This document shows positions 161 through 20,109 of a stretch of 20,109 nucleotides of DNA, in pieces (positions within the stretch are counted from its first letter, which is position 1; every line of letters starts with the position of its first letter). The DNA comes from a virus: IMG/VR virus record IMGVR_UViG_3300050821_010443, positions 1 to 20,109 of that record; one strand, written 5' to 3'. A program made the position numbers and the translations under genes. Under the pieces are notes generated by a model that was not told the DNA's origin, did no database searches, and was given only the letters and a program-made list of their open reading frames with translations.

Positions 161-823
161 AGGTTGCGGTTGGTTGGTTTGGAGCTTTGCTCCATCTGTG
201 CGTCTCACTCGGGCTCAACGTGAGCGTCAAGCGTGACGCACAACTGGAAAATTGCTTTGCAATAACACTGTGAGTCTCTTGCGAATCTTCGCGTCTAGCT
301 TCGCTTCACCGATTCAGCTTCTGTGTTCCGCTCTTGCTAGCTTGCTGCTAGCGTTCCAGTGATTCGACACCGACTCACTGTGCGGGTTTCACGTTGGGCG
401 TTGGATTACCGCCTACGGTACGTCGCTTGCTTGACTCACCCCTCATCTGCTCGACACCGTTAGGTGCCTTTACGATCGCAGTACCACGCCATGAGGAGAC
501 AGCGCTAGAATGTGAAGGAACTTGCGAGCTAACCGCCTTGTCAGCACCGCCATCGAACGAGAATTTCGTCGACCCACCAATTTACGCCGAAAAGCTAGCA
601 GCCGTCAAATTTGCTAGCCTATTGTTAGTTTTTGCGAAGCAAAGTTCGCTAATACGCTCCCTCGCGAGCGCGCCCAGGTCATGTGATCGCATCATCAGGC
701 CAGCCCGCGCTTGCCTGGAGCCGCCTCTGCGCGCCCAAGCATTATGCAGGAGCGGCCTCGCGCGCATTCTGTACGTGCTACGCTTGAGCCTGCAGACCAC
801 CCACGCTACATTCGCAAGCTCAT
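161..823. other. Long non-coding stretch with many short inverted repeats
   Basis: No convincing gene is seen on either strand; the open frames here have low-complexity, unnatural translations. The stretch contains a perfect hairpin GGAGC-TTT-GCTCC (181-193), an 8-bp inverted repeat TGTGCGTC/GACGCACA (197-204 and 235-242) with a nested CTCAC/GTGAG pair (204-208 and 220-224), a hairpin GCGA-atct-TCGC (281-292), and GTGAGTC/GACTCAC (270-276 and 372-378). Four GCTAGC palindromes also lie here (336, 347, 594, 613). It may be a regulatory leader for the minus-strand gene at 1-160 or an unrecognised non-coding RNA region. Confidence 0.5.
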
Positions 824-1216
824 ATGAACGAGCTACTCGAGCGCTCAAAGCGCAAAAACGCCAATCATGCCGATAAACCACTTCCTGTGGTCCCCACTAA
901 TCGCAAACTGACCAAGGAGCAAATCAGCGAAGCAAGCGATACAGTGAGAGCAAATCTCACCGATGTTCTGGTCAAGATATCAGCAAAGCTGGCCAGCCTT
1001 CCAGATCACGCTATCGGCACTCAAAACCTGGCTCAAGTCGCCAAGCTGACCGATACCGCAGCAAAGCTGTTCAGCTGGCCAGCTCCCAAAACCGTCGATT
1101 CTCTCGCTCAAGGAGTCGCTCCCACTGCCGCCATCAATCTCGCCCTCATTCGCACCACTCCTGAACAGCTTAGAGCCAAAGCGCAGCAAACTGCAATAAA
1201 CCGACTAGCTGGCTAA
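824..1216 (+). CDS. Hypothetical phage protein, 130 aa
   Basis: A 130-residue protein with natural composition and no membrane segment or signal peptide. It has a basic N-terminus (RSKRKNANHADK), a helical centre beginning LTKEQISEASDTVRANL, and a C-terminal stretch INLALIRTTPEQLRAKAQQ. The ending with a TPEQLR-type motif recalls some small phage packaging or DNA-binding proteins, so a small-terminase-like role is possible; I could not support it further. The start is the first ATG of the frame; no Shine-Dalgarno site is visible. It stands alone between two non-coding stretches, and a promoter-like sequence follows its stop codon. Confidence 0.65.
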   Translation: MNELLERSKRKNANHADKPLPVVPTNRKLTKEQISEASDTVRANLTDVLVKISAKLASLPDHAIGTQNLAQVAKLTDTAAKLFSWPAPKTVDSLAQGVAPTAAINLALIRTTPEQLRAKAQQTAINRLAG

Positions 1217-1221
1217 AAAGC

Positions 1222-1252
1222 TTGACTTTTTGCCCCTTACTTCCTGTAAAAT
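1222..1252 (+). promoter_or_regulatory. Sigma70-like promoter
   Basis: A TTGACT -35 box (1222-1227) is followed by TGTAAAAT (1245-1252), which can be read as TGTAAA with a 17-nt spacer or TAAAAT with a 19-nt spacer. It would transcribe the structured non-coding stretch that follows, or the gene train beginning at 2126. A perfect 12-bp palindrome (1321-1332) lies 69 bases downstream. Confidence 0.45.
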
Positions 1253-1320
1253 CCCGAAGCGAAGCGAAGCGGTTCTTAAAGAAACCATGGAACGTTGCTA
1301 ACGCCAAACCAACAAACCAA

Positions 1321-3115: not shown

Positions 3116-3438
3116 GTGAGTATCAGTTCCATCACCTGGGGTGTGGATGCGGATGCAATGATTACCTCCGCAACCCGACCGTCAGCAATGTGAGAGGGAC
3201 AGCCAGTAATCAGTGCCCGTACTGCGGCGGCCTCAATGGGATGCATACCTGGGCTGGATCTGGCGTATGCCCTGGGCTTAACCCACATTATCCAGGTAGC
3301 CATTGGGTAGGCCCGTATCAACCGCTCGAAGGACAAGTGATGGTAGATCTGATGTACTTGCGGCTGGAGGTTCGGCGGCTGACAGAAATGGTGCAGGAAC
3401 TCCTCCTTCTCCAACGCGCACGGGAGGCCACCAAATGA
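3112..3438 (+). CDS. Cys/His-rich small protein, 108 aa, possible zinc binder
   Basis: The N-terminal half is rich in Cys and His: HHLGCGCGC at residues 7-15, CPYCGG at about 35-40, then HTWAGSGVCPG and a HYPGSH segment. The spacing is compatible with a zinc-ribbon-like fold, although no named family is recognised. The C-terminal third (VDLMYLRLEVRRLTEMVQ) is a helix that could mediate oligomerisation, ending in LQRAREATK from the third start-site module. ATGA overlaps join it to both neighbours. Function unknown. Confidence 0.7.
   Translation: MSEYQFHHLGCGCGCNDYLRNPTVSNVRGTASNQCPYCGGLNGMHTWAGSGVCPGLNPHYPGSHWVGPYQPLEGQVMVDLMYLRLEVRRLTEMVQELLLLQRAREATK
3411..3428 (+). repeat. Repeated start-site module, copy 3 of 3
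   Basis: Identical 18-nt copy (CCAACGCGCACGGGAGGC) inside the 3' end of the gene at 3112-3438. It encodes QRARE and places GGGAGG a few bases upstream of the ATG at 3435. Confidence 0.8.
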
Positions 3439-3836
3439 ATGACGATAACCGCAAAGTGACGGTCTGCTCGGAGTGTCTGCAGGCGACCTGCTGGCAGGGG
3501 ATCTTTTGCTGTGACAACTACCGGGACGCTGGAACCGTCGATCTCCCGGTCTGGGCGCTGCAGAAGCTAGCATTGGAAAATCCCGTGAGGCGGCAAATGA
3601 CTGAGGCCCAGGAAGAGGTATTCGAGCGGGTGAACGAGCTCTTAAAGGAGCACTTCGAGGGTTACCTGATCAGTGTGGTTGACGAGAACGAGGTGGGGAA
3701 GATCACCACCATGCAGTACCACGGGGGCTTACTTCAAGCGATAGGGCTAGCGCGTGCGAGCGAGCATAAGATGCTGGAGCACCAGGCGGACGGGATCGAG
3801 TTCCGCAAGAGAGAAGACGAGGAGGACGAAGAATGA
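3435..3836 (+). CDS. Cys-rich hypothetical protein, 133 aa
   Basis: The start at 3435 follows the third start-site module and overlaps the upstream stop (ATGA). The longer frame opening at 3303 would duplicate already coding sequence and is rejected. The N-terminus carries a Cys cluster (VCSECLQATCWQGIFCCDNY, residues 10-29) that may bind a metal. The middle is helical (EAQEEVFERVNELLKEHFEG) and the C-terminus is a strongly acidic tail ending REDEEDEE. No family is recognised. The next gene starts in an ATGA overlap at 3833. Confidence 0.7.
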   Translation: MNDDNRKVTVCSECLQATCWQGIFCCDNYRDAGTVDLPVWALQKLALENPVRRQMTEAQEEVFERVNELLKEHFEGYLISVVDENEVGKITTMQYHGGLLQAIGLARASEHKMLEHQADGIEFRKREDEEDEE

Positions 3837-4006
3837 AGCGCCGGCCAACGCTCCAGGACGTGATGCAGGATCGTCCGGTTTGCCCGCCCGAGGTCCTGGC
3901 CCTGCTCCGGGACATGAAGAGGTATGTCGAAGATAATGGATTCGGCTCTGAGCAGACAGAGCTGATCGAGCGGGCCGAAACCCTTTTAAGAAAACACACC
4001 GTATGA
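3833..4006 (+). CDS. Small hypothetical protein, 57 aa
   Basis: It starts at the ATGA overlap at 3833 and stops in an ATGA overlap at 4003-4006. The product begins MKRRPTLQDVMQDRPVCPPE and continues VLALLRDMKRYVEDNGFGSE. It is a basic then acidic soluble protein of three short helices, with no recognised domain. The GAGGACGAAGA before the start provides a purine-rich ribosome-binding stretch. The overlaps make it very likely real although it is short. Confidence 0.65.
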   Translation: MKRRPTLQDVMQDRPVCPPEVLALLRDMKRYVEDNGFGSEQTELIERAETLLRKHTV

Positions 4007-4218
4007 AATACAAAACTGTTCCCCTCAATATGATCATCGATCTGGGGTACGACATGCGAGGATTTATCGCGCTGCACACTGACGAGGAGCTGATCCGGCT
4101 GGGGCGACGAGCGGTCAATGCGAAGATGGAAGGGCTAGCCGCGATGCTAGCAAAGGAGATCGCCGAGCGAGACCAGAACGAGAAAGTCCTTTCTAATTTA
4201 TTCGGACCGGCAAAATGA
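4003..4218 (+). CDS. Small hypothetical protein, 71 aa
   Basis: A 71-residue soluble protein beginning MKYKTVPLNMIIDLGYDMRG. The second half is helical and charged (LAAMLAKEIAERDQNEKVLS). Two GCTAGC palindromes 12 bp apart (4134 and 4146) are both read as Leu-Ala here. It is coupled to both neighbours by ATGA overlaps, with no intergenic space for a separate promoter. No family is recognised. Confidence 0.7.
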   Translation: MKYKTVPLNMIIDLGYDMRGFIALHTDEELIRLGRRAVNAKMEGLAAMLAKEIAERDQNEKVLSNLFGPAK

Positions 4219-4580
4219 CATTCAACGAGATCAAGCCCTACGAGAACCTGGATCTGAAATGCTATCGCTCGCTACCGGACGGCCGCTGGGAGATTGGCAT
4301 CCTGAAAATGCTCTGGGGTAAAGCGCGGGTCCGGATCGCGCTAGCAGACAACAACGGCTACGTTCCAATCGATTATTGGGGCGGCGATCATAAGACTGCC
4401 TACATACTATTGGGCTTTCTGCTCGCCATCCTGACGTCGTTACCCGAATCGATCGAGCTGCACACCCTGGTCTTGATTTTCCCGCAGCAGGACGATAAAG
4501 ACATGGGGCCGGAATTCTGGCGCCGGCTGTTCCTGGCCGCCACCGAGGCGCGAACCATTTGGGGAGATTTCCAGGAATGA
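4215..4580 (+). CDS. Hypothetical protein, 121 aa, with hydrophobic centre
   Basis: The N-terminal half is beta-rich (CYRSLPDGRWEIGILKMLWG). The centre (YILLGFLLAILTSLP, about residues 63-77) is hydrophobic enough for a short membrane-associated helix, though a buried core helix fits equally. The C-terminal half holds FPQQDDKDMGPEFWRRLFL. No family is recognised. ATGA overlaps on both sides place it in the translationally coupled train. Confidence 0.65.
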   Translation: MTFNEIKPYENLDLKCYRSLPDGRWEIGILKMLWGKARVRIALADNNGYVPIDYWGGDHKTAYILLGFLLAILTSLPESIELHTLVLIFPQQDDKDMGPEFWRRLFLAATEARTIWGDFQE

Positions 4581-4930: not shown

Positions 4931-5398
4931 ATGAGCGAACCCTACGATTCAACACTCGATACCGCAGCGCACATCCGCCAAGTCCAGGAAGCAATTTTTG
5001 TGGTGGTCGACAAACTCGCGGGACGCGCCCTGGTCCACGACGCTAGCAAACTCGCCGAGCCCGAGAAGAGCGCCTTCGACCAGGCCACGCCGAGACTGAA
5101 GCACCTGAAGTACGGCAGCGATGAGTACCGCGCCGCCTTGCGCGAGATCAAGCCCGCGCTCGAGCACCATTACCAGGCCAACGATCATCACCCGGAACAC
5201 TACGGCGAGGACGGGATCCTGGGAATGAGCCTCATGGCTATAATAGAGATGCTAGCCGATTGGAAGGCCGCCGGCGAACGCCACGATCCGCCGACCGGGC
5301 TCAACCAGTCGATTGCTTTTAACAGCGTCCGCTTCAAGATGCCGCAGTACCTGACCCAGATTTTCTACAACACGGCGCGCGAGCTCGGCTGGGAGTAA
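4931..5398 (+). CDS. DUF5662-like phage protein with HD-type metal-binding residues
   Basis: The protein matches the pattern of DUF5662, a phage family rich in His and Asp and of unknown function. Visible motifs are HIRQV (H14), LVHDASKLAEPEK (H36-D37), EHH (H79-H80), NDHHPEHY (H86, H87, H90) and EMLADWKAAG (E106, D110-W111). These ordered His/Asp pairs resemble HD-superfamily metal sites, suggesting a small hydrolase, but no substrate is known. The length of 155 residues fits a single-domain protein. The gene has its own structured leader (4832-4921) and no Shine-Dalgarno site, and it breaks the ATGA chain seen upstream, so it may be controlled separately. Confidence 0.75.
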   Translation: MSEPYDSTLDTAAHIRQVQEAIFVVVDKLAGRALVHDASKLAEPEKSAFDQATPRLKHLKYGSDEYRAALREIKPALEHHYQANDHHPEHYGEDGILGMSLMAIIEMLADWKAAGERHDPPTGLNQSIAFNSVRFKMPQYLTQIFYNTARELGWE

Positions 5399-5719: not shown

Positions 5720-6109
5720 ATGAGTACCACCTGCATAGATCCCGCCTGGCTAGCACGACACCCGGACGTTGCAGCCTTCGCCGCTAGCGCCAAGGTCAAA
5801 CACCCGATCGACCGAGCGCATCCCTACCCGCCTGGGTCCGGGCCGCCAGGCCAGACGTGCGGCACCTGCATGAAGCTCTGCACCAAGCAGTATTCGAAAA
5901 ACTATTTCAAGTGCCACGTCTTGCGCAAATTCTGGACGGCCGGCCCGGCCACCGATATCCGAAAAAAGGATCGGGCCTGCTTGTCCTGGGAACCGCGGAT
6001 CGACAAGGTGGAACCAATCAGCACCAGAAACCGGCACGAGCCGAATCAGTACCCGCAGCTAGCAGAGTTCTCGCCAATGAGGCGCAGAATGACAAGGAGA
6101 ACGAGTTGA
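5720..6109 (+). CDS. Cys-rich phage protein, probable zinc-binding domain, 129 aa
   Basis: The centre contains GPPGQTCGTCMKLC, then YFKCHVL and GPATDIRKKDRACLSW. The order C-x2-C-x3-C, KC, TDIR and AC is a pattern found in small phage proteins and is compatible with a zinc-binding fold; the biochemical role is unknown. The N-terminus (DPAWLARHPDVAAF) looks like a separate short helix. The C-terminal third is basic and Pro/Arg-rich, probably disordered. The gene starts immediately after the preceding stop. Three GCTAGC palindromes (5749, 5783, 6058) fall inside it. Confidence 0.7.
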   Translation: MSTTCIDPAWLARHPDVAAFAASAKVKHPIDRAHPYPPGSGPPGQTCGTCMKLCTKQYSKNYFKCHVLRKFWTAGPATDIRKKDRACLSWEPRIDKVEPISTRNRHEPNQYPQLAEFSPMRRRMTRRTS

Positions 6110-6111: not shown

Positions 6112-6282
6112 ATGACCGAACGAGAGAAAGTCTTATACGACGTGGCTAAACTGCTTTACGCGGAGGCTCCCGGAATCAAACCAAACCAGGCCTGGGATGC
6201 GGCGGAGGCGTTTTACGAGGAAATGCTAAAACGCATTGGCGCACCGCCCGAAGAAGTGGGTGACCGGGCACCGCGAACGTAG
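6112..6282 (+). CDS. Small hypothetical protein, 56 aa
   Basis: I choose the ATG at 6112, preceded by AAGGAGA about nine bases upstream; the longer frame opening at 5857 would overlap the Cys-rich gene in another register. The product begins MTEREKVLYDVAKLLYAEAP and continues NQAWDAAEAFYEEMLKRIG. It is a compact, soluble, two-helix protein with no recognised family. Its last 47 bases overlap the proposed TTG start of the next gene. Confidence 0.6.
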   Translation: MTEREKVLYDVAKLLYAEAPGIKPNQAWDAAEAFYEEMLKRIGAPPEEVGDRAPRT

Positions 6283-6742
6283 GGCACACCCCTTGAAAGC
6301 CAAGCAGGAACGCCGGGAGCTTAAACGGCTCTACTCGCGGATCCCGACCTTCAAGTGCGTTGAGGGCTGCACGGATTGCTGCGGCCCGGTGCCAGTCAGC
6401 CGGGAGGAGCATAAGATGGGCGCTAAACTGATGAGCCCGGAGCTAGCCGGACAGCTGCTTGATATCATGTCAGCGGGCGGCGCTAGCTCGGAAGAACTCA
6501 ATGCTAGCCCTGAGCTCACGCAATGGGCGAAGAATCTCGGGGCCTGCTTGAAATGCCCTTACGTGATCGAGCACGGCGGCGGTTGCGCGATTTACGATAA
6601 CCGGCCATTTCTCTGCCGCCTTTTCGGCACCATTCCCTCTATGCCGTGCCCTCATGGAGCGGGCCCCGAAAAAATGCTTTCCGTTGCGGACGAACGCGAC
6701 CTAATGCGTAGCTATCACAAACTCATTGTTATAGTACAATAG
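6236..6742 (+). CDS. YkgJ-like Cys-cluster protein (putative zinc/iron-binding)
   Basis: The protein carries the Cys cluster of the YkgJ/CxxCxxCC family (PF03692), proposed to chelate zinc or iron. C41-x3-C45-x2-CC (C48-C49) is followed by CLKC (C104, C107), GGCAIYDNRPFLCRLFG (C117, C127) and CPHG (C138). The segment IYDNRPFLCRLFG is characteristic of the family. The frame opens at a TTG (6236) inside the previous gene; a GTG at 6257 or a later TTG are alternatives, so the N-terminus is uncertain. Cellular role in phages is unknown. Three GCTAGC palindromes fall within about 60 bp (6442, 6482, 6503). Confidence 0.8.
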   Translation: MAHRPKKWVTGHRERRAHPLKAKQERRELKRLYSRIPTFKCVEGCTDCCGPVPVSREEHKMGAKLMSPELAGQLLDIMSAGGASSEELNASPELTQWAKNLGACLKCPYVIEHGGGCAIYDNRPFLCRLFGTIPSMPCPHGAGPEKMLSVADERDLMRSYHKLIVIVQ

Positions 6743-6783
6743 TCTAGAGTAATGTGCGGACCTATTCCCTAGAGAATCTTATC

Positions 6784-7149
6784 ATGAGCAAATTTACCCC
6801 GGAGGAGATGGGGCTGGAGGAAGTTCTGTCTTTTGGTGTGCCCTTCAGCGATGGATCGTCAACGTTGGTTCCGATGGAGCAACCGTACTCGCAAGCCCTT
6901 CAACATAAGGCGGCTTATTTTAATATGTCGGTTCCAGAGTACGTTGTCAGAGTGCTCAAAAAGGCCCAGACGGATCCGTTTTCGCCCTGGAATAACCCGG
7001 CGTATCCGGTTCCAGACTTCCTGCGGCGCGCCCACCGAGCTTGTCACTGTGCCGGCTGCGGCAGGCTGATCGAAAAGCTTTGGCCGTTGATCGCGGCCTG
7101 TGTTTCCATAACCCTTCTGTTGCCGTGCATCTACGATTATATTCAGTAG
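6784..7149 (+). CDS. Hypothetical protein with C-terminal membrane helix, 121 aa
   Basis: I take the ATG at 6784 rather than the GTG at 6754. The N-terminal and middle parts are soluble (FTPEEMGLEEVLSFGVPFSD; later YFNMSVPEYVVRVLKKAQTD, which resembles a short RHH-like helix pair). Residues about 92-99 contain CHCAGCG, a possible metal site. A C-terminal helix (WPLIAACVSITLLLPCIYDY) is clearly hydrophobic. Together this looks like a tail-anchored protein with a small cytoplasmic domain. An AT-rich TATAGTACAAT stretch near 6731 could be a promoter, but a -35 box is not obvious. Confidence 0.6.
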   Translation: MSKFTPEEMGLEEVLSFGVPFSDGSSTLVPMEQPYSQALQHKAAYFNMSVPEYVVRVLKKAQTDPFSPWNNPAYPVPDFLRRAHRACHCAGCGRLIEKLWPLIAACVSITLLLPCIYDYIQ

Positions 7150-7225
7150 AGGAGATGACAAATATCGGAGAGCCCTGGTCAATTTAAGCATTGCCATACT
7201 CTAGCTCATATTGCACGGTCCCCTG

Positions 7226-7420
7226 ATGATTGCGGCTGCTAACGGTGGCGCGGGCGGGGGAAATGGCCCCGATTTTCTCTTTGGCCTCAGCCCCCTTGAT
7301 CGCAAAGAGTTTGAGCGCCGAGCGGCGGCCGCGGGAATGACGTTGCAAGAGTTTATCGCCGAGATCCTCAGACGGGAACTCGACAAGGATGAGAACGGCA
7401 ACCCGCCCAAGATCAATTAA
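7226..7420 (+). CDS. Probable ribbon-helix-helix (CopG-like) DNA-binding protein, 64 aa
   Basis: After a glycine-rich N-terminus, the segment LSPLDRKEFERRAAAAGMTL followed by QEFIAEILRREL matches the two helices of ribbon-helix-helix repressors (helix A, the turn AAGMTLQ, helix B). The preceding strand (PDFLFGLS) could be the DNA-contacting ribbon. Such proteins usually bind operators as dimers. The start is the ATG at 7226; a TTG at 7211 is an alternative, and neither has a clear Shine-Dalgarno site. It lies just left of the attachment region and may regulate the integration module. Assignment is by motif shape only. Confidence 0.55.
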   Translation: MIAAANGGAGGGNGPDFLFGLSPLDRKEFERRAAAAGMTLQEFIAEILRRELDKDENGNPPKIN

Positions 7421-7421
7421 G

Positions 7422-7568
7422 ATGTGGCAGAATTGGCACAGACGAATCCTCTTTTTCCAGCGAGCCTACGCAACGTGCACGCAGCGAAAGGTTTATAATT
7501 TCAATAATCGATGTGCCGTCTGCGGATCCGCTCCAGTGGCCGAAAAGGGCGCAAGAGTGGCGGATTAG
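7422..7568 (+). CDS. Possible small ORF, 48 aa, Cys-containing
   Basis: The ATG follows the previous stop by one base. The frame reads MWQNWHRRILFFQRAYATCT and ends NNRCAVCGSAPVAEKGARVA. The C-x2-C pair in CAVCG could be half a zinc site, and the start of an HNH-like domain would look similar, but no His/Asn motif follows. It ends inside the left repeat (GTGGCG) of the attachment region. It could be a real small gene or a truncated remnant left by recombination at the attachment site. Confidence 0.35.
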   Translation: MWQNWHRRILFFQRAYATCTQRKVYNFNNRCAVCGSAPVAEKGARVAD

Positions 7569-7573
7569 TGGCG
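7557..7573. repeat. Left GTGGCG repeats, candidate integrase arm sites
   Basis: GTGGCG occurs at 7557-7562 and 7568-7573 (11-bp step), about 55-70 bp left of the tRNA-derived core. The same hexamer recurs on the right side of the core at 7808 and 7820. Tyrosine integrases of the lambda type bind short arm sites on both sides of attP. Calling these arm sites is an inference from position only. Confidence 0.3.
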
Positions 7574-7626
7574 TCTGGTAATTATAGTGTTGAAATATCA
7601 ATCACTTACGACCCAAACTTTCAAGA

Positions 7627-7680
7627 CTCAAAATCCAGTGTCCGCAAGGACGTGTGGGTTCGATCCCCTCCGTCGGCACC
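7627..7680 (+). other. Attachment-site core: 3' half of a tRNA-Leu(CAA) gene (attP-like)
   Basis: The segment reads as the 3' part of a tRNA-Leu. It has an anticodon loop CTCAAAA (7627-7633, anticodon CAA at 7629-7631), the 3' anticodon-stem strand TCCAG, a long variable arm with GTCC-GCAA-GGAC, a T-arm GTGGG-TTCGATC-CCCTC (one T-T mismatch), the acceptor strand CGTCGGC (7671-7677), discriminator A and CC. The 5' half (a GCCGACG strand and D-arm) is absent upstream, so it is not a tRNA gene. Phage integrases often use the 3' end of a tRNA gene as attB and carry a copy in attP. The integrase starts about 800 bp downstream. Because phage-like genes lie on both sides, this looks like attP of a non-integrated genome rather than a prophage end. 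Confidence 0.8.
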
Positions 7681-7770
7681 CTCTTAAGCCCCTCTAAATC
7701 AACGGTTTACGCAGGGTTTACCCGTAGAAGGCGACTTAATAAGCTTTAGTAAAAGATCGACCGACCGCAG

Positions 7771-7776
7771 TATAAT
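7771..7776 (+). promoter_or_regulatory. Consensus -10 box TATAAT
   Basis: A perfect TATAAT lies between the attachment core and the first gene of the integration module. A matching -35 box is poor (TTTAGT at 7745 is 20 nt away). It could drive the genes from 7798 through the integrase, perhaps with an activator. Confidence 0.35.
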
Positions 7777-7797
7777 GTAATAAAATACGGTGAGAGA

Positions 7798-12918: not shown

Positions 12919-13324
12919 CAGAACCCGGCCTATTTCGGAGAACATCCTACGCTGCATGAGCCCAGAGCAGCGCAAGAAGTACGGGCAGATGACCAGCCAA
13001 GAGGCGCAGGAAAAATTCTGCCGCGACACCGAGAAGCAGATGCACGTTGACGTGCGCCGGGAATGCCTTCGCCAGCGGATCTACGTTATTGAGGCGCCGA
13101 TGCATAAGAGGTCGGCGCTGCCAACGGGTCATCCGGACCTAACGCTTTTAAAAGATGGTTACAATATGCTGCTCGAGCTCAAGGTGGCAACCAGGCTGTC
13201 CACCGATCAGATCGATCGGATCGCCGAGCTCGAGCAGTGCGGGAACCCTACCGTGGTCGCCAACTCGCTAGCGGATGCCATCAACGCGATCCACGCCTGG
13301 CTGACAAAGATCGGAGCTCGCTGA
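12878..13324 (+). CDS. VRR-NUC domain nuclease, 148 aa
   Basis: The C-terminal half matches the VRR-NUC fold of the PD-(D/E)XK superfamily: TGHPDLTLL (D87), MLLELKVATRLSTDQIDRI (E100, K102, Q111) and CGNPTVVANSLADAINAI. D...ExK...Q is the full catalytic set. VRR-NUC proteins cut branched DNA such as flaps and Holliday junctions, and phages use them as resolvases or restriction-like nucleases. The N-terminus is basic and has two cysteines. The start overlaps the upstream gene by 41 bp; AAAGGTG nine bases before the ATG supports it. Two downstream ATGs are possible alternatives. Confidence 0.85.
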   Translation: MRTMNLRQPKKQANRTRPISENILRCMSPEQRKKYGQMTSQEAQEKFCRDTEKQMHVDVRRECLRQRIYVIEAPMHKRSALPTGHPDLTLLKDGYNMLLELKVATRLSTDQIDRIAELEQCGNPTVVANSLADAINAIHAWLTKIGAR

Positions 13325-13510: not shown

Positions 13511-14353
13511 ATGAGTCTGCAGCATGTCGGGGCCGTCCTCTATGACGCCGAAAACAAGGATCCGTACATGGTCATGATTTTGCTTTCGCTAGCGGATTTC
13601 GCCGATTCGGAGACGGGCGAGTCTCACCGGAGCATCAAGGAAATTTCGAAAATGTCCCGCTGCAGCGACCGGCAGACGCAAAACTACTTGCGCCTGATGT
13701 GTGAGCTGGGCTGGATAGAAGTCACAAGCAGAAGTGGCAAAAATGGGGCGAGTCTCCCAAACGGATATCGTTTGGTTCGCCATCACAGGGGGGGTGCACA
13801 ATATGCAGGGGGTGCACACTGTGCGGAGGGTGCACAGCAGATAGAAAGAGAAGCGTCCCCCCTTAATGGTTCCCCTTCTCTTCTCCCCCACTCCCCCTCT
13901 TCTTCTTCCTCTCCTTCAGCCCCCCTCGAAGAGAAAGACAGAAGCACGCGCGAGGCGGCTGACGCCGATTTGTTCGGAGCGAGCAACGGAAAGCCAGATT
14001 CCTTCGAAACTCTCCATCGTTACTGCCGATCACTCGGGCTCGCCTGGGACGACGCCACCCACCTGTGGGGTCATTGGCAGGAAAATGGGTTTAAGCGAGG
14101 TAAAGTAAAAATAAAGGATTGGAAGCGCTGTGTTCAAACGTATGCGACCGGGACATGGCTGCCTTCCAGGAGGCCCGGCTATAAGCCCAGCCCGATGCAA
14201 GAGGCCTACTTCCAGAGGCAGAACCAGGAGTACCTGGAGGCGCAGGAGACCCGGCACCGAAGGGAAAGCGAAGAATGGGAGATGAACGCCACGCCGGCCG
14301 ATCGTGAAGCCCGCGCCAACTTTCTGCGGCTGAAGAACGAGGAGGCGCAATGA
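13511..14353 (+). CDS. Phage replication initiator, winged-helix type
   Basis: A 280-residue protein. The N-terminal 90 residues (MILLSLADFADSETGESHRS, KEISKMSRCSDRQTQNYLRL, MCELGWIEVTSR, NGYRLV) form a typical winged helix of replication initiators (HTH_36-like). The centre is a linker encoded by iterons (GGAQYAGGAHCAEGAQQ) and then a Ser/Pro-rich stretch. The C-terminal half (HLWGHWQENGFKRGKVKIKD, then a charged helix) resembles the helicase-loader region of DnaD- or O-like proteins. It precedes the DnaB-like helicase with an ATGA overlap, as lambda O precedes P. A strong GGAGGTG lies six bases before the ATG. Confidence 0.75.
   Translation: MSLQHVGAVLYDAENKDPYMVMILLSLADFADSETGESHRSIKEISKMSRCSDRQTQNYLRLMCELGWIEVTSRSGKNGASLPNGYRLVRHHRGGAQYAGGAHCAEGAQQIEREASPLNGSPSLLPHSPSSSSSPSAPLEEKDRSTREAADADLFGASNGKPDSFETLHRYCRSLGLAWDDATHLWGHWQENGFKRGKVKIKDWKRCVQTYATGTWLPSRRPGYKPSPMQEAYFQRQNQEYLEAQETRHRRESEEWEMNATPADREARANFLRLKNEEAQ
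13792..13845 (+). repeat. Three 18-bp iterons (GGGTGCACA) inside the initiator gene
   Basis: GGGTGCACA recurs at 13792, 13810 and 13828 with an exact 18-bp step. The repeats lie in frame (six codons each). Exact spacing and position inside a replication initiator gene are the hallmark of lambdoid origins, where O binds iterons of 18-20 bp within its own gene. A candidate replication origin, together with the tract at 13870-13917. Confidence 0.65.
13870..13917 (+). other. Pyrimidine tract next to the iterons
   Basis: Forty-eight bases contain only T and C except one A (13890). They lie 25 bases to the right of the iterons and encode the Ser/Pro-rich linker of the initiator. Strand-asymmetric tracts beside iterons are used as unwinding or single-strand regions in some phage origins; lambda has an A-rich counterpart. 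A triplex-prone or unwinding element is plausible but unproven. Confidence 0.5.
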
Positions 14354-15639
14354 ACCATCCCGATGACGATGAGAAGATCCTCGTCGGGCTCATGGCAAAC
14401 TACCCGAATGTCGCGTGCGAAGCTGGTCACCGGATCTCGTCCCTCCAGATCAACAACGATTTTTACCGCCGGGTTTTCGTGGCGGCGCGCGAGGCGGCCA
14501 AGGACAGGGTCCTGTGCTTCGAGGAGGTCAAGCGCCGATTTAACCCGGCAGACCAGGATGAGCTCATGCTTTTTGCGGGAGTTTATGACGTTCGCTGCGT
14601 CGAGTTGAGCGGCCGTTACTACATCGAGCGGGTTATCGAAGCCGCGGCCCTCCGCAAATTCCGCAGCTCCTATCTCTCGCTAGCAGACTCGGTTGAACAC
14701 CTAACCGTGGACGACGCGCTGCTAGCATCCGAAGAAATGCGCAACTCGGTCCGCGTGCCCAACCTGTGGCACGACTGGAAGCAGTACGGCGACGATTACG
14801 AGACCGACATCCAAACCAGAGTCGACAATGCCGGCAAGTCCGCGCCTGTCCGGCTGGGGATCGCGCCCATCGACAACTGGCTCCAATTTCAGCCGGGGCA
14901 CCTGACGGTAATCTGTGCCAGGCCGAAGACCGGCAAATCGTTTCTGGTGGCCAAGTTGATCAACGAGTCGACGGTCAAGCACGACATTCCAGGGCTCTAC
15001 TGCTCGATCGAGATGAGCGCGGCGGAGACCTACGACCGGATCCTGGCCATGCAAAGCCAGGTCTCGACCAAACGGATCCAGAGCGGGAACGTCGCGCCGG
15101 CGGACCTGGCACGCCTGGGCGGGCTCCTGCTCAAGCTCAAACAGAAGCCGCTCTCCTTCAGCCGGGAAGAGCGCGAACCGCGGATCTTGTCCGCGATCTC
15201 CGAAGCGATCCAAAAACACCGGATCCGCTACGTCGTGATCGACTACCTGCAACGGATCAAGCGCGAGGGCACCGCTTACCGCAAAAAGTTCGAAGAGGTC
15301 GACCAGGTCACCGAAAACCTCAAAAGTTTTGCGGAAAAAAATGCGGTCTCGATCATCCTGCTTTCCCAGGTGAACGGAAGCGGCGCGATGGCGTTTTCGG
15401 CTTCATCCGAAGCCCACGCGGACGAGAAGCTCATCATGAGCGCCATGAGGGACTGCATACCTCGCCGCGTGAAAATAACGATCGAATTTCAGCGTCACGG
15501 CCCGAGCGGAATGAGCTGCGAGACTGAGTTTGACGGTGATACGCGCTTTTTTGTTCCCGTCGAACCGCTTGCCACAAAGGGCAAAAAGTCAAGAACACCT
15601 TACGCAGACTACGAGGACGAGGTTGACAAGCTTTGTTAA
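14350..15639 (+). CDS. Replicative DnaB-type helicase
   Basis: The 429-residue protein has an N-terminal helical domain (MNHPDDDEKILVGLMANYPN, helices to about residue 130) and a RecA-type ATPase domain. Visible motifs are ARPKTGKS (Walker A, 190-197), YCSIEMSAAETYDRILA (motif H1a-like), YVVIDYLQRI (Walker B, about 294-303) and LLSQVNGSG (H3, Q340). It unwinds DNA at the phage fork and is presumably loaded by the initiator immediately upstream. The C-terminal part is shortened and lacks the usual DnaB ending, but retains SAMRDCIPRRVKITIEFQRH. ATGA overlap with the initiator suggests coupled translation. Its last codons overlap a promoter-like TTGACA (15623). Confidence 0.9.
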   Translation: MNHPDDDEKILVGLMANYPNVACEAGHRISSLQINNDFYRRVFVAAREAAKDRVLCFEEVKRRFNPADQDELMLFAGVYDVRCVELSGRYYIERVIEAAALRKFRSSYLSLADSVEHLTVDDALLASEEMRNSVRVPNLWHDWKQYGDDYETDIQTRVDNAGKSAPVRLGIAPIDNWLQFQPGHLTVICARPKTGKSFLVAKLINESTVKHDIPGLYCSIEMSAAETYDRILAMQSQVSTKRIQSGNVAPADLARLGGLLLKLKQKPLSFSREEREPRILSAISEAIQKHRIRYVVIDYLQRIKREGTAYRKKFEEVDQVTENLKSFAEKNAVSIILLSQVNGSGAMAFSASSEAHADEKLIMSAMRDCIPRRVKITIEFQRHGPSGMSCETEFDGDTRFFVPVEPLATKGKKSRTPYADYEDEVDKLC

Positions 15640-15691: not shown

Positions 15692-15844
15692 ATGGCTTCG
15701 CGCGCGAAATCTGGAGCGGTTCCAAAGCTAACCCACACCATCACGCCGTCGCCGGCGCAGCCGATCAAGGGCAAGGCGACCAAGACGGATAAAGGCCCCA
15801 TGAGTACGAGCGAGTATTCGGGCCATCTACGGAGGAAGAAATGA
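15692..15844 (+). CDS. Small hypothetical basic protein, 50 aa
   Basis: I choose the ATG at 15692 because GGAGA lies five bases before it; the earlier ATG at 15656 has no ribosome site. The product begins MASRAKSGAVPKLTHTITPS and is lysine-, proline- and threonine-rich, ending SGHLRRKK. It is probably disordered and nucleic-acid-binding. The stop overlaps the next start (ATGA at 15841). No family is recognised. Confidence 0.6.
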   Translation: MASRAKSGAVPKLTHTITPSPAQPIKGKATKTDKGPMSTSEYSGHLRRKK

Positions 15845-16050
15845 ACTCCGACCTTCGCCCCCGTGCTCCGCAAGGGCCATCCGATGCGGAGCTCAACGCT
15901 ATCCCACCCGATCCGCATCTGCCCTGCTTCGGTGGCAACAACATGGCCGCCACGATCTTTAACGGCGGGATGCTAGCAGTGGCCATGGGCGGCTCCGCGC
16001 CGGATCACTCGCGGGTCGTGGTTTCCACGTTGGTCGAACGCGGGCGGTAG
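15841..16050 (+). CDS. Small hypothetical protein, 69 aa
   Basis: A 69-residue protein reading MNSDLRPRAPQGPSDAELNA, then LPCFGGNNMAATIFNGGMLA and VAMGGSAPDHSRVV. It is glycine- and alanine-rich with a C-terminal strand, and contains no clear membrane segment or known motif. It starts in an ATGA overlap and is separated from the next gene by two bases. One GCTAGC (15972) is read as Leu-Ala. Confidence 0.6.
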   Translation: MNSDLRPRAPQGPSDAELNAIPPDPHLPCFGGNNMAATIFNGGMLAVAMGGSAPDHSRVVVSTLVERGR

Positions 16051-16052: not shown

Positions 16053-16256
16053 ATGGCCAAGCTGAACGCAAAGAAGCGCAACGCACTCAAGACTTCCAGC
16101 TTCGCGGAGCCGGGCGAGCGCAAGTACCCGATCCAGGACGCCTCCCACGCTCGCAACGCGCTAGCAAGAGTTTCCCAGCACGGGACGCCGGCGGAGAAAG
16201 CGAAAGTCCGCGCGGCGGTCAAACGCAAGTACCCATCCATCGGAAAGGACAAATGA
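16053..16256 (+). CDS. Small basic protein of the DUF6582-like type, 67 aa
   Basis: The sequence (LNAKKRNALKTSSFAEPGER, then KYPIQDASHARNALARVSQH) closely follows a small family recurring in phages and bacteria, with motifs K-R-x-AL, FA-P--R-YPI-D-SHA-NAL and KAKVRAAVKRKYP at the C-terminus; I recall it as DUF6582-like. It is strongly basic and soluble. In phages it often sits in structural or lysis regions, and a role is not established. It has no clear ribosome site of its own, two bases after the previous stop. Its stop overlaps the next start. Confidence 0.8.
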   Translation: MAKLNAKKRNALKTSSFAEPGERKYPIQDASHARNALARVSQHGTPAEKAKVRAAVKRKYPSIGKDK

Positions 16257-16504: not shown

Positions 16505-16876
16505 ATGCCAGACGACGAACCAACACCTTACGGGCCGCCGATCCATCAAGACGAACCTGCTAGCCAGCAAACACAGCCGGGTCATTCTGAGACCGAAAAT
16601 CCGGTCCGACCTGGGCAACCTGTGGTCGAAGAAAAATATCGGCACGAGCCGCTGGACCCGCGCGATCCGCGCAATCCACGAGTGGCCGCCGATCCGAATG
16701 ATCCGCGCACCAATCCGCGCTTCGCCTCGTCCGCCCCAACGGCCGATCCTACTCCTCCAGGCGAGCATCCGCTACACGCCCCGGTTGGACAAGCGGCGGT
16801 GGACCTGGGGCCGATCAATTCCAGGCTCGATTCCATCGAAGCAAAACTCGATCAGCTGTTGGAAAAAGACGAGTAA
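16505..16876 (+). CDS. Proline-rich protein with Asp-Pro-Arg repeats, 123 aa
   Basis: AAGGAG nine bases before the ATG gives a good ribosome site. The first 95 residues are disordered and rich in Pro, Asp, Glu and Arg, with repeats such as DPRDPRNPRVAADPNDPRTN. The last 25 residues (INSRLDSIEAKLDQLLEKDE) form a coiled coil that would oligomerise the protein. The design, a flexible tether plus a trimer- or dimer-forming helix, is seen in phage tail or head accessory proteins, but no family is recognised. It precedes the membrane-protein cluster. Confidence 0.65.
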   Translation: MPDDEPTPYGPPIHQDEPASQQTQPGHSETENPVRPGQPVVEEKYRHEPLDPRDPRNPRVAADPNDPRTNPRFASSAPTADPTPPGEHPLHAPVGQAAVDLGPINSRLDSIEAKLDQLLEKDE

Positions 16877-16882: not shown

Positions 16883-17038
16883 ATGAGCACGCTCTTGATC
16901 CTCCTTATCATCCTGATCGTGCTCGGCGGCGGCGGCGGCTATTACGGCTACGGGAGGTGGGGATACGGCGGAGGCCTTGGCATTTTCGGCCTGGTTCTCA
17001 TCGTCCTGCTGATTGTCTGGTTGCTCGGATACCGCTAG
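16883..17038 (+). CDS. DUF3309-like small membrane protein, 51 aa
   Basis: The product has two hydrophobic helices (MSTLLILLIILIVLGG and LGIFGLVLIVLLIVWLLG) around a Gly/Tyr/Trp-rich loop (GGYYGYGRWGYGGG). This matches the layout of the DUF3309 family of tiny membrane proteins. In phages it could be holin-like, which fits its place upstream of the endolysin gene. The TAG stop at 17036-17038 is part of a GCTAGC palindrome, the only one of the 44 read in that frame. Confidence 0.75.
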   Translation: MSTLLILLIILIVLGGGGGYYGYGRWGYGGGLGIFGLVLIVLLIVWLLGYR

Positions 17039-17044
17039 CAAAAA

Positions 17045-17167: not shown

Positions 17168-17415
17168 CAGGCGCTCTCATGACTGAGCAAGAGACACCGA
17201 AGCCTGCCACGGACATGAAAACATTGGTGACCACAGCCGTCGCGGTGAAGATCGCTGGCATCATCGGAGCGGCCATTCTCCTGATCTTGCAAACTCTGCT
17301 CGTCAAGGAAGGGGCAACGATTGAAGGGCACGCCAGCCAAATGGTCGATTACGAGCGGCTGATGCAACAGGAGATCAAAGAGATCAGGGACATGGTGCAG
17401 ACGATGAAGAAATGA
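17164..17415 (+). CDS. Small membrane protein, holin candidate, 83 aa
   Basis: One membrane helix (residues about 28-46, VKIAGIIGAAILLILQTLL) is preceded by a hydrophilic head (TEQETPKPATDMKTLVTTAV) and followed by a charged helix (YERLMQQEIKEIRDMVQTMK). An in-frame second ATG at 17179 (MTEQE) gives a dual-start layout like that of lambda holin/antiholin, although this is only a positional similarity. It is upstream of the hydrolase. Confidence 0.6.
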   Translation: MTGALMTEQETPKPATDMKTLVTTAVAVKIAGIIGAAILLILQTLLVKEGATIEGHASQMVDYERLMQQEIKEIRDMVQTMKK

Positions 17416-17427
17416 AACCCATGGCCG

Positions 17428-17706
17428 ATGTTCCTAGCCCAAATCGATGTTCAGCACGCGCAAACTGTAGTCGAGCAGGCGCAGGAGACGGTCGGTCATA
17501 TCGCCAAACAGCCCCTCGAATGGTGGATGGCTGCTTTAACGGTTGGAAGCTTGACCTGCATTTATTTGGTCGTTCGCAAGATGCTCCACAATCACCGGGT
17601 GCTAGCAGAAAGGTTTCTGGCCAAAGTGGAAGACAAGGATAAGGAAATCGCCCGACTTAACGACCGGATGTTCGTATTGCTCGAGGAACGCTGGAAAACA
17701 CGATGA
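17428..17706 (+). CDS. Small membrane protein with coiled-coil tail, 92 aa
   Basis: The N-terminal 30 residues are amphipathic (QIDVQHAQTVVEQAQETVGH). PLEWWMAALTVGSLTCIYLV (about residues 30-49) is a membrane helix. The C-terminal half (VLAERFLAKVEDKDKEIARL) is a coiled coil. The same order is seen at 5411-5719. It may be an inner-membrane spanin- or holin-associated protein. The start at 17428 is the first ATG after an in-frame stop; the frame opening at 17412 is a shadow. The stop overlaps the hydrolase start (ATGA at 17703). Confidence 0.65.
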   Translation: MFLAQIDVQHAQTVVEQAQETVGHIAKQPLEWWMAALTVGSLTCIYLVVRKMLHNHRVLAERFLAKVEDKDKEIARLNDRMFVLLEERWKTR

Positions 17707-18386
17707 GTGATCTATCCAAAGTTGATTCCGTAGCCGGTGTCTCGATCTACTCGGTCGCAGGCGAGCCGAAGAGCTACATTTTTAAGGCTGGCCTGATGAT
17801 AGACTGTGACGGGAGCCCGAACGCCTATGGTCCGAATAACTCAGGGATCGATTACACTGCCAACGGCGGCGACGACTCGGGCGGCAAGGCGGGCGCATGG
17901 TGGGGAGGCCCTGTCGATGCCTACGGCAAGCCGATCGTCCAGAAGATTTACGAGCCCTCACCAGGGCTTTATGTGAGCGGCACCAGCCTAGCTTGTACCA
18001 CTTACCCGGAGCATAGCCAGTATCGCTACATCGACGCCGAAAGCATTCCGTTTTTCGTTTTGCCAGGCTCTCATCAAAACGGCGCAAAGGTTGGCGATGT
18101 GGGGCTCTGCTATAACACCAGGACGGGTGACAACTGCTACGGCATTTATGCCGACACCGGGCCGAGCTCCAAGATCGGCGAGGCATCGATGCGAATGGCC
18201 GAGGCGCTAAAAATTGATCCTGACCCAAAAAAGGGCGGGACCGAATCCAAGATCATCGTTTACCTCGTTTTCCCCGGCTCAGTCGGGGCCTGGAAACCGC
18301 CGAATGTCTGGTTTGATGTCGCCAACACGCTGACTAAAGCCTGGGGCGGGCTAGCACGTCTCAAGAAATTGTTACCGGAACTCTGA
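17703..18386 (+). CDS. GH75-like glycoside hydrolase, probable endolysin
   Basis: The 227-residue protein matches the GH75 (chitosanase-type) layout seen in bacterial and phage genes. It has MIDCDGSPNAYGP (30-43), WWGGPVDAYGKPIVQ, GLYVSGTSLA, YIDAESIPFFVLPGS (109-123), GDVGLCYN and CYGIYADTGPSSKIGE (145-160). D151 and E160 are the likely catalytic acids. No signal peptide is visible, so export would depend on a holin; four small membrane genes lie directly upstream. In a phage it most likely degrades the cell wall at lysis, though activity on peptidoglycan is inferred. The stop overlaps the next start (TGATG). Confidence 0.8.
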   Translation: MSDLSKVDSVAGVSIYSVAGEPKSYIFKAGLMIDCDGSPNAYGPNNSGIDYTANGGDDSGGKAGAWWGGPVDAYGKPIVQKIYEPSPGLYVSGTSLACTTYPEHSQYRYIDAESIPFFVLPGSHQNGAKVGDVGLCYNTRTGDNCYGIYADTGPSSKIGEASMRMAEALKIDPDPKKGGTESKIIVYLVFPGSVGAWKPPNVWFDVANTLTKAWGGLARLKKLLPEL

Positions 18387-19495
18387 TGAACGAACTCAAG
18401 CAAGTGGTGATAGCGTTCTCCGCCACGCCCTGCTACATCGCGCAGGACACGCCGGGACCATACAACCAGGAAGAGCTGGGAGTGCTGTGGCTCGACTGGG
18501 TGGCCGAGCTATCGGCGAATTCGATCCGAAACTACGAACTGGTGCTCCTTTCGCCGACTAGGACCGCGCTGCCGCCTTCCTTGGACGCCTGGGGCAAGGT
18601 GACCAAGTTCGTCGAAAACCATGCAGTCGCCCAATGGCCGCAGGGTCCCAACCGGGTGTTTCAGCAGGTTCTGTGGTTCTACTACCATAAGAAGCTCCAA
18701 GGACCGTTTTTTTGGGTTGAGCCTGATTGTATGCCGCTCACGCCTGACTGGCTGGATCTCGTCGCTGATGAGTATCGGCGCTGCGACAAGCCGTTCATGG
18801 GAGCCGTGGTCGATCCGAACCCGCCGAAGAACAGGGCGCCGCGGCATATGACCGGAAACGCGGTTTATCCGGACAAGGCTTACATACTCGCGCCGAGGCT
18901 CATGGAGGCCCATCACACAGCCTGGGACGTGCACGCCGCGCCGCAGATCCTGCCCAAGGCCCACCTAACGAAGTTGATTCAGCACGATTGGCGCCGGCCC
19001 GAGATCGAAACCGCAGACGAGCTCCGCCGGATCCTGCAGCCAGAGGCGGTCCTGTTTCACTCCGACAAGTACGGCGCGATCCCAAGGCTCCTCAGCAAAA
19101 GCCCGCGCCAGGCTGCGCCTGTTCTTGAGCCCGGCGAAGTTCCGATCCTCGAATACGCTGCTAGCAGGCTGCCGCCGCCAGCAGGACAAGGACCGGATCC
19201 CACGATACCTCAACCGACGCCGGCCGCTTCGCTCGACGAAGCGCTGCGGATCATCCAGGAAGCCAGCCTCGAGGATCCGCTGGTCCGCAAACGGATCGCG
19301 AAGTTCATGGTCACCAACGACATCGTCAATCACGGCCACTGCACGCAGTACGGAAAGCCCTTCGGTGGCAAAAAAGGGGCGAAATACAAGACGCCGGCGG
19401 CCAGAGGAAAAGTCACCCTGATGACCGACGCCGAATTCGAGAAACGGATAAAGGCCAACGCACAAGAGAATGTCCCAGCTACCGTCACAGAATGA
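18386..19495 (+). CDS. Putative glycosyltransferase (GT-A-like) with C-terminal extension
   Basis: The first 250 residues look like a GT-A type fold: VVIAFSATPC at the start, YELVLLSP, and FFWVEPDCMPLTPDWLDLVA (109-127), with E112-P-D114 in place of DxD. FMGAVVDPN and HMTGNAVYPDKAYIL (154-168) follow as substrate-side segments. It is likely to transfer a sugar to DNA, a virion protein or a cell surface component, which cannot be told apart here. Residues about 250-280 are Pro-rich, and the last 90 (SLDEALRIIQEASLEDPLVR, HGHCTQYGKPFGGKKGAKYK) form an extra domain. It overlaps the terminase start by 26 bp. Position between endolysin and terminase is unusual. Confidence 0.6.
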   Translation: MNELKQVVIAFSATPCYIAQDTPGPYNQEELGVLWLDWVAELSANSIRNYELVLLSPTRTALPPSLDAWGKVTKFVENHAVAQWPQGPNRVFQQVLWFYYHKKLQGPFFWVEPDCMPLTPDWLDLVADEYRRCDKPFMGAVVDPNPPKNRAPRHMTGNAVYPDKAYILAPRLMEAHHTAWDVHAAPQILPKAHLTKLIQHDWRRPEIETADELRRILQPEAVLFHSDKYGAIPRLLSKSPRQAAPVLEPGEVPILEYAASRLPPPAGQGPDPTIPQPTPAASLDEALRIIQEASLEDPLVRKRIAKFMVTNDIVNHGHCTQYGKPFGGKKGAKYKTPAARGKVTLMTDAEFEKRIKANAQENVPATVTE

Positions 19496-20109
19496 AGCGT
19501 GGCCCTTCTACTTCGAGGCGTTTGGTGACCTGCCCGAGATTCAGAAGCTCCTCTACTGCGCCAGGCACGAGCCCGATCCGGAGCTAGCAGAGTATTATCT
19601 AGGCCGCTACGAGTACCGCAAGCGGGCGATTGAAGCGATCTGGAGCGCCGAAGACGTTCTCTGGCACGGCTGGATTGATCGGGCGTTGCGCTCCTTCTGC
19701 GATTACAACTGGATCACCTGGACCGGACCGGCCGGCAGCGGGAAGTCGTTCGCAGCCTCTCTGTTTGCGCTCGAGTACTGGATGGAGGAGCCGGACCGCA
19801 CCAGCGTCATCATGGCTAGCACCACCAAGGGCGCGCTAGCACGCCGGCTTTGGTTTTATGTTCAGGATCTACACTCCAAGATTGGACCGGAGGTCGGCCC
19901 GAAGGGTGAGCCGATTTATTCCGAATACCTCATTCGTTGGCGAGCTGGCGACAAGAAGAATGGCATATTCGGCCTGGCAGTTGAGGACGGCCCAATTGAG
20001 GAGGCACTTCACAATCTCATCGGATTTCACAATAACCGTGTACTTCTTATCGTCGACGAGGCACCCGGCGTCCGGGAAGCCCTTTTCCAGGCGTGCGACA
20101 ACCTTAGCA
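19470..20109 (+). CDS. terL: Large terminase subunit, partial (N-terminal 213 residues)
   Basis: The frame starts at ATG 19470, 26 bases before the upstream stop, and runs off the right edge, so the nuclease half is not seen. It has an N-terminal helical part with YYLGRYEYRKRAIEAIWSAE, then WTGPAGSGKS (Walker A, 86-93), a segment TSVIMASTTKGALARRLW and NRVLLIVDEAPG (Walker B with the catalytic Glu, about 190-200). The order and spacing fit the packaging ATPase that drives DNA into the procapsid. Four GCTAGC or near-copies occur in it, including a pair 20 bp apart (19815 and 19835). Confidence 0.85.
   Translation, partial: MSQLPSQNEAWPFYFEAFGDLPEIQKLLYCARHEPDPELAEYYLGRYEYRKRAIEAIWSAEDVLWHGWIDRALRSFCDYNWITWTGPAGSGKSFAASLFALEYWMEEPDRTSVIMASTTKGALARRLWFYVQDLHSKIGPEVGPKGEPIYSEYLIRWRAGDKKNGIFGLAVEDGPIEEALHNLIGFHNNRVLLIVDEAPGVREALFQACDNLS

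Follow-up and report, generated by a model that had tools for sequence, protein, structure and literature searches.

GCTAGC as a probable highly iterated palindrome, parallel to cyanobacterial HIP1, in one clade of uncultured phages

The cause of the accumulation of HIP1-type palindromes has been debated for decades. In E. coli, Dcm and very-short-patch repair link a methylated motif to a repair bias and to CTAG depletion (CTAG, CCWGG). HIP1 (GCGATCGC) is common among cyanobacteria, in which it reaches frequencies of 300–2,700 per Mb, with alternate HIPs at 500–2,500 per Mb, and each highly over-represented cyanobacterial sequence has a putative matching methyltransferase (Elhai 2015, PMC4390886). 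The motif GCTAGC is absent from that paper. A GCTAGC m5C mark has been mapped in Bacillus megaterium S2, with 563 sites in the genome (PMC8112702), so that methylating enzymes with precisely this target are known to exist; over-representation does not feature in that report.

The window, by which we mean the whole 20,109-bp stretch of DNA analyzed here, covers part of the genome of an uncultured, temperate tailed phage. An exact search returned 44 copies of GCTAGC (2,188 per Mb), the first starting at position 336 and the last occupying 19835–19840, and base composition predicts 6.0; the original prediction had counted the same 44 copies with 5–6 expected. Relatives were found and ordered using the terminase large subunit (TerL) as a marker, which defined clade A (the window and six other lineages) and a sister clade B. 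The enrichment extends beyond this contig to all seven clade A lineages, with 218 copies over 117 kb vs 35.4 expected and an enrichment of the hexamer of 5–9x; relative V (49,852 bp) carries 80 copies, which is 5.3x expectation and 1,605 per Mb. Non-redundant clade B, a sample of about 35 kb from few lineages, holds 6 copies vs 9.8 expected (0.6x). The excess is genuine and genome-wide, does not depend on codon choice and is common to the seven lineages of clade A, and it is lacking in clade B.

These features are best read as those of a highly iterated palindrome that closely parallels cyanobacterial HIP1. Like HIP1, GCTAGC is a palindrome with GC at both ends that occurs in coding and non-coding DNA, and the excess is found genome-wide, within genes and between genes, as in a HIP; its frequencies in the window and in relative V lie within the published ranges for HIP1 and alternate HIPs. 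As with HIPs, the excess is present in one lineage and missing in a near relative, and the motif extends past its core. Phages can carry such a signal: Nostoc phage N1, our positive control, has 33 copies of HIP1 vs 0.17 expected and Nodularia phage 2AV2 has 20 vs 0.29 expected, the copy numbers being per 50 kb, and the clade A phages likewise carry their palindrome at high frequency. The hosts of N1 and 2AV2 are known cyanobacteria, however, and a C5 methylase is annotated in N1, whereas no such gene was found in the window or in relative V; for GCTAGC the cognate methyltransferase is putative. The observed/expected ratio of GCTAGC (5–7 in the comparison with HIP1, 5–9x across clade A, for a hexamer) appears lower than that of the HIP1 octamer (55–228) or of the hexamer GGCGCC (at least 15), the methods behind these ratios not being identical. 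A concentration of one-base deviants at the first and last positions is a further feature of HIPs; in clade A the outer deviants are 2–5x commoner than in clade B but still stay below expectation, and the inner deviants are similar in the two clades.

Could ordinary composition, that is codon, amino-acid or dinucleotide bias, yield this excess? A third-order Markov model built on the window gives 15.7 copies, well short of 44, and GCTAGC has the top enrichment among the 64 hexameric palindromes, so that the Markov comparison proposed with the original prediction upheld the signal. At the highest order, a Markov model of the window alone brings the figure to 36.9, which would favor the compositional explanation, but this model includes the motif itself, since GCTAG and CTAGC are mostly parts of GCTAGC. 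Of 65 CTAG tetramers in the window, 44 (68%) lie inside GCTAGC, in line with the two thirds claimed earlier. The claim that no codon effect is involved was borne out by synonymous-codon shuffling, in which the 19 window genes gave 2.6±1.6 expected vs 25 observed and 36 genes of relative V gave 8.6±2.8 expected vs 63 observed; any push of the protein sequence towards Leu-Ala or Ala-Ser is slight at most. The enrichment is seen in both frames and in non-coding DNA alike, and clade B stands at 0.6x although its proteins and G+C are similar. The synonymous shuffles and the clade contrast have refuted an explanation by composition, which now has next to no probability.

In our gene model 26 sites fall in the Leu-Ala frame, nine in the Ala-Ser frame, none in the forbidden frame and nine between genes; the earlier figures were 28 for Leu-Ala, nine for Ala-Ser and at least six for non-coding sites. 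Six non-coding copies (336–341, 347–352, 594–599, 613–618, 1466–1471 and 1606–1611) lie outside genes as described before, yet a gene at 824–1216, with a counterpart in relative V (62% aa identity), sits among them. Further copies between called genes are at 10312–10317, where there is a doubtful short ORF (10084–10335), at 10394–10399 and at 17034–17039. Sites in the Leu-Ala frame were located in the ORFs 2126–2320 (2188–2193), 3303–3836 (3566–3571, 3746–3751), 4003–4218 (4134–4139, 4146–4151), 4215–4580 (4340–4345), 5720–6109 (5749–5754, 6058–6063), 15841–16050 (15972–15977) and 16053–16256 (16160–16165), as well as in the DUF5662 gene 4931–5398 (5251–5256), the CxxCxxCC-domain gene 6236–6742 (6442–6447), the integrase 8489–9679 (8743–8748, 9238–9243), gene 10502–11764 (phrog_3657; 11218–11223), the exonuclease 11761–12918 (11904–11909, 12195–12200, 12510–12515, 12870–12875), the VRR-type nuclease 12878–13324 (13267–13272), the replication gene 13511–14353 (13588–13593), DnaB 14350–15639 (14679–14684, 14721–14726) and the GH75-like gene 17703–18386 (18350–18355). 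The Ala-Ser frame is used in the DUF5662 gene (5042–5047), ORF 5720–6109 (5783–5788), the CxxCxxCC-domain gene (6482–6487, 6503–6508), the phrog_3657 gene (11432–11437), ORF 16505–16876 (16559–16564), ORF 17412–17642 (17601–17606) and gene 18386–19495 (19160–19165). The N-terminal part of TerL, on the plus strand at 19470–20109 and cut by the contig end, contains sites at 19583–19588, 19815–19820 and 19835–19840 (alignment columns 122, 354 and 374), each present in six of the seven clade A lineages, and the last also in L143. A mosaic origin of the three sites of L143 was considered and rejected, there being no recombination signal at the nucleotide level in TerL or the lysin region.

Clades A and B have the same gene order and similar G+C, and clade B shares 76–80% aa identity in TerL and 72–76% in a portal-like protein with clade A. 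A single branch of the TerL tree (support 100/99) divides carriers of GCTAGC from non-carriers; as the tree is without an outgroup, it is compatible with gain in clade A as well as with loss in clade B. GCTAGC spells 47% of Leu-Ala dipeptides in clade A vs 9% in clade B, and 29% vs 0% of Ala-Ser dipeptides. At Leu-Ala and Ala-Ser dipeptides that diverged lineages of clade A have in common, GCTAGC was retained in 160/219 comparisons (73%) and other spellings in 32/181 (18%), which answers the earlier suggestion to examine conservation at synonymous positions. At non-site dipeptides the partner genome has GCTAGC in 59/181 comparisons (33%), and this points to a continuing gain. Sites are gained and kept one by one in clade A. 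A relic signature, left by an ancestor that lived in a GCTAGC-rich host and now just decaying slowly, would fit the CTAG-keeping outer-base variants, which like decay products are found at 0.20–0.48 of expectation in clade A vs 0.06–0.12 in clade B. Such a relic is nevertheless very unlikely in view of that gain and of the persistence of sites at only 66–85% nucleotide identity between clade A lineages.

The preferred extended site in clade A is the symmetric YGCTAGCR. In the window the base following GCTAGC is A in 26 of 44 copies, as had been noted, and the octamer TGCTAGCA occurs 10 times vs 0.3 expected. The preference for a purine at the following base exceeds what codon usage gives (Fisher P=0.003). 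Outside this hexamer, CTAG is under-represented in clade A as well as in clade B (0.24 and 0.14). Dcm and very-short-patch repair link CTAG depletion to a methylated motif and a repair bias; in clade A, by contrast, CTAG forms part of the enriched word, and GTTAGC/GCTAAC, its C-to-T precursors, are no more depleted in clade A than in clade B (0.72 vs 0.78). Single-base variants, 11 in number, are too few for a deamination footprint to indicate which C may be methylated. Gaps between sites are Poisson-like (CV 0.98 vs 0.98±0.13 by chance), and an even spacing was accordingly rejected; this random spacing argues that the sites are autonomous. Gaps of 40 bp or less show a weak excess (22 vs 15.7 expected, P=0.06); one homologous pair of sites, recurring in the terminase genes of several relatives, accounts for many of the gaps of 20 bp.

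Several of the functions listed in the original prediction fared poorly against these data. The helical-turn phasing suggested by close pairs was not borne out, the gaps being random. A packaging signal is disfavored because clade B, with a similar terminase and portal-like protein, has no excess; pac or cos sites, which are few in copy number and conserved with the terminase, do not fit 44 copies in 20 kb. A DNA-uptake or Chi-like signal is also disfavored: such words are non-palindromic and strand-oriented, whereas GCTAGC is perfectly palindromic, its copies are randomly spaced and its extended form is symmetric too. Restriction-site avoidance, considered in addition to those functions, was rejected, as GCTAGC is over-represented in clade A and not under-represented.

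The symmetry of YGCTAGCR would suit a dimeric protein, and a phage-encoded DNA-binding protein might bind GCTAGC at dispersed places, as its operator or for recombination or DNA organization (cf. the stoperators of mycobacteriophage L5), clade B having lost or never had the protein. The trait follows phage phylogeny in the TerL tree, its sites are strongly retained and for many genes of clade A no function is known. The sites are, however, randomly spaced, lie in every kind of gene and far outnumber known operators; the exonuclease and DnaB-type helicase, which make up a replication/recombination module, are common to clades A and B, and no binder specific to clade A was identified. We regard such a protein as an unlikely cause.

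Direct selection on GCTAGC density, as opposed to biased repair, is another conceivable cause: the palindrome, possibly methylated, would act as a self mark sparing the DNA from host nucleases or defense. The 73% retention at strongly diverged synonymous positions and the presence of sites in non-coding DNA are compatible with this, as is Anabaena phage A-4L, which entirely lacks GATC, an indication that phages do respond to host marks. Chi-type self marks, on the other hand, are not palindromic and are strand-biased, whereas the GCTAGC sites are perfectly palindromic and randomly spaced, and about 100 sites per genome would each need strong selection. On balance we doubt that a self mark accounts for the excess.

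Searches for C5-cytosine and N6/N4 methyltransferases (PF00145, PF01555) gave no match in the window or in the 50-kb relative V. An orphan methyltransferase, one of the options first listed, is likely, but it would be encoded by the host, as the searched families are not in these phage sequences. Scans of genome contigs for a host with the DnaB and integrase alignments found no relative, and protein searches of phages and plasmids gave either no matches or distant and mixed ones (Akkermansia, Helicobacter, Streptomyces, Arthrobacter, Microcystis), too weak for naming a host. Viral contigs scanned for three clustered copies of GCTAGC mostly showed local repeats or chance occurrences, and among the clustered-GCTAGC viral records checked none matched clade A in length and genome-wide density.

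We consider it somewhat probable, at roughly 55%, that clade A carries GCTAGC, preferentially as YGCTAGCR, as a highly iterated palindrome owing to the host in which these phages replicate. Among the options of the original prediction, support is best for the HIP1 analogy and for a signature that the phage acquired from its host, on account of the seven clade A lineages, the occurrence in coding and non-coding DNA and in both frames, the high retention and the precedent of phage N1; the mechanism is our inference. The clade A host would possess a methyltransferase for GCTAGC (or GCYRGC or CTAG), and its repair machinery would favor changes that create or keep methylated GCTAGC. Phage DNA replicating and integrating in that host would be stamped alike, as HIP1 is found in phage N1. 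Clade B would be unmarked if its hosts lack the enzyme or the repair partner, or if its replication is independent of both. Two observations sit uneasily with a host origin. Phage A-4L, with zero copies of HIP1, shows that not every phage of HIP1-type hosts carries the mark, and GCTAGC at one per 450–600 bp, with no spacing limit, misfits the repair model of Elhai, in which saturation is near 1 per 1000 nt.

More tentatively, this host imprint may represent a new HIP of an environmental bacterial group, perhaps non-cyanobacterial, in which methylation-guided repair would rewrite any resident DNA, phages included. This would affect roughly one in two of the Leu-Ala positions, and one in three of the Ala-Ser positions, at which the protein allows the motif, and GCCGGC would be a further target in most members, though not in all.

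Sister clades that are alike in proteins, gene order and G+C and that differ sharply in one palindrome amount to a natural experiment. Through their two hosts, the pair of clades A and B lets models of biased repair and of selection be tested, and our findings suggest that palindrome signatures could serve for matching uncultured phages to their hosts.

All 44 copies of GCTAGC counted in the original prediction were recovered, and their excess held against base composition, from which 6.0 are expected; 44 of the 65 CTAG tetramers in the window lie within GCTAGC. A third-order Markov model, proposed there as a check, predicted 15.7 sites, far under the observed number. The highest-order Markov expectation is 36.9, an unfair null because the 5-mers mostly belong to the motif. 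Two better nulls were a synonymous-codon shuffle, which keeps all proteins and codon usage, and a comparison with relatives. Shuffling 19 window genes gave 2.6±1.6 sites versus 25 observed. The relative V (IMGVR_UViG_3300046375_000022; 49,852 bp; loci L123, L124 and L002), reached through its DnaB (79% amino acid identity to the window), carries 80 copies, and shuffling 36 of its genes gave 8.6±2.8 versus 63. The signal is hence, in agreement with the original prediction, no codon effect, and codon bias was rejected as its source. By our own gene model, 26 of the 44 window sites encode Leu-Ala and 9 encode Ala-Ser, the remaining 9 falling outside called genes.

The 20,109-bp window makes up an entire IMG/VR virus record, and no nucleotide relatives of it were found among 50,697 phage records. 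It encodes an integrase (8489–9679), a phrog_3657 protein (10502–11764), a PD-(D/E)XK exonuclease with DUF2800 (11677–12918), a VRR-type nuclease (12878–13324), a replication-initiation protein (13511–14353), a DnaB-type helicase (14350–15639), a GH75-like gene (17703–18386; GH75 is a chitosanase family) and a terminase large subunit (TerL) truncated by the contig end (19470–20109). With integrase, replication genes and terminase among its content, the window thus represents part of the genome of a temperate tailed phage. At 7798–8280, a small protein matches the AP2 DNA-binding domain at E 3e-7, narrowly missing the Pfam cut-off; domains of this type occur in homing endonucleases. V encodes a tail fibre with collagen repeats and carbohydrate-binding (CBM5/12) modules (L123:3735–5036).

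A terminase alignment of the window and V identified 20 loci (L129–L148); one of these, L130, matches a stretch of V exactly across TerL. The observed/expected ratio of GCTAGC was 5.0–9.0 in L131–L135 and L130, and 0–0.9 in L136–L148 with the exception of L143 (3 sites in 4.6 kb). In the TerL tree, a single branch (support 100/99) divides the GCTAGC-rich clade A, comprising the window and six other lineages, from its sister clade B; lacking an outgroup, this tree is compatible with either gain in clade A or loss in clade B. TerL nucleotide identity is 74–93% inside clade A and 68–72% between the clades, and G+C is 0.556–0.578 in clade A and 0.528–0.550 in clade B; the two clades also share the exonuclease and the order of the genes surrounding TerL. 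With near-copies removed, clade A pooled 218 sites versus 35.4 expected in 117 kb, an enrichment in relatives of the kind the original prediction had proposed to check, and clade B 6 versus 9.8 in 35 kb, the latter from few lineages with several near-identical contigs. The GCTAGC excess is real, strong and clade-wide. A 420-aa protein of V (L123:1594–2856), for which no family match was found, is 93% identical to that of L131 (clade A) and 90% to that of L142 (clade B), conservation across clades far beyond that of TerL; it is possibly the major capsid protein. In the clade B phage L136, positions 6728–8257 code for a protein with an autotransporter beta-domain (PF03797, E 8e-29), an unusual gene for a phage and one that suggests a Gram-negative host.

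Permissive dipeptides were spelled GCTAGC in 87 of 184 Leu-Ala and 48 of 165 Ala-Ser cases in clade A genes, as compared to 2 of 22 and 0 of 21 in clade B. In ordered comparisons of diverged clade A lineages that both have the dipeptide, GCTAGC was retained in 160 of 219 (73%) and other spellings in 32 of 181 (18%), while 59 of these 181 non-site dipeptides were GCTAGC in the partner; since ordered pairs are non-independent, these figures are effect sizes and not significance tests. Sites that are so well kept and are still being gained imply that a directional force is at work, whether biased repair or selection. Among the alternatives (ALTERNATIVES), binding of GCTAGC by a phage-encoded protein and direct selection for the hexamer as a self mark both appear unlikely. 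Roles as a packaging signal, or as a Chi or uptake sequence, were tested and did not fit, nor did restriction avoidance as an explanation.

A purine flanks the hexamer in 337 of 436 half-sites, giving the extended site YGCTAGCR, and within Leu-Ala this preference exceeds codon usage (52/64 versus 52/89, Fisher P=0.003); it accounts in part for the A noted after 26 of the 44 sites. CTAG outside GCTAGC is depleted, to 0.24 of expectation in clade A and 0.14 in clade B. GATC occurs at about twice its expectation in clade A (2.18) and clade B (1.96) alike, hence this bias is unlinked to the GCTAGC trait. The suggested pairing of sites near multiples of a helical turn was not upheld: gaps are Poisson-like without even spacing, and a single homologous site pair in TerL supplies most of the 20-bp gaps that recur. 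Permissive clade A dipeptides 50–100 bp from another GCTAGC were occupied in 6 of 50 cases (12%) versus 36±8% by shuffling, in one distance bin out of six, the other distances matching chance.

A second palindrome, GCCGGC, is also strongly enriched across most of clade A, namely in V (97 versus 25 expected; 86 observed versus 31±5 by synonymous shuffle) and L131–L135, but hardly in the window (13 versus 10.5). L128, a 39-kb contig (G+C 0.67) distantly related through the phrog_3657 protein (33% amino acid identity), lacks GCTAGC but has GAGCTC, TGATCA and TTCGAA at 5–6 times expectation, which may represent a further palindrome signature.

The nearest known parallel is HIP1, the highly iterated palindrome (HIP) of cyanobacteria, together with their alternate HIPs; each over-represented sequence has a matching putative methyltransferase, and Elhai proposed that G-methylC guides a repair system (PMC4390886). 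Both GCTAGC and GCCGGC start and end with GC, as this model requires; a poorer fit to it are the GCTAGC density, which is not capped at one site per kb, and the indifference of the sites to their neighbors. No match to the PF00145 (C5-cytosine) or PF01555 (N6/N4) methyltransferases was found in the window or in the 49,852-bp sequence of V, and Pfam scans that covered most ORFs of the two, small ones excepted, revealed no others. Enzymes producing m5C in GCTAGC exist in Bacillus megaterium S2 (PMC8112702). In the open-access papers searched, GCTAGC was nowhere described as a highly iterated palindrome.

As a positive control, HIP1 was counted in three cyanobacterial phages (L149, L150 and L151). 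Nostoc phage N1 (33 versus 0.17 expected) and Nodularia phage 2AV2 (20 versus 0.29) carry it at 70–200 times expectation and are nearly devoid of GGCC, whereas Anabaena phage A-4L has no HIP1, GATC or GGCC; the methylated words are thus answered in opposite ways. These counts demonstrate that phages are able, though not obliged, to carry a host-type palindrome. The GCTAGC excess is convincingly HIP-like; as to mechanism, we infer that clade A phages bear the palindrome of their host, which a putative host enzyme and methylation would underlie.
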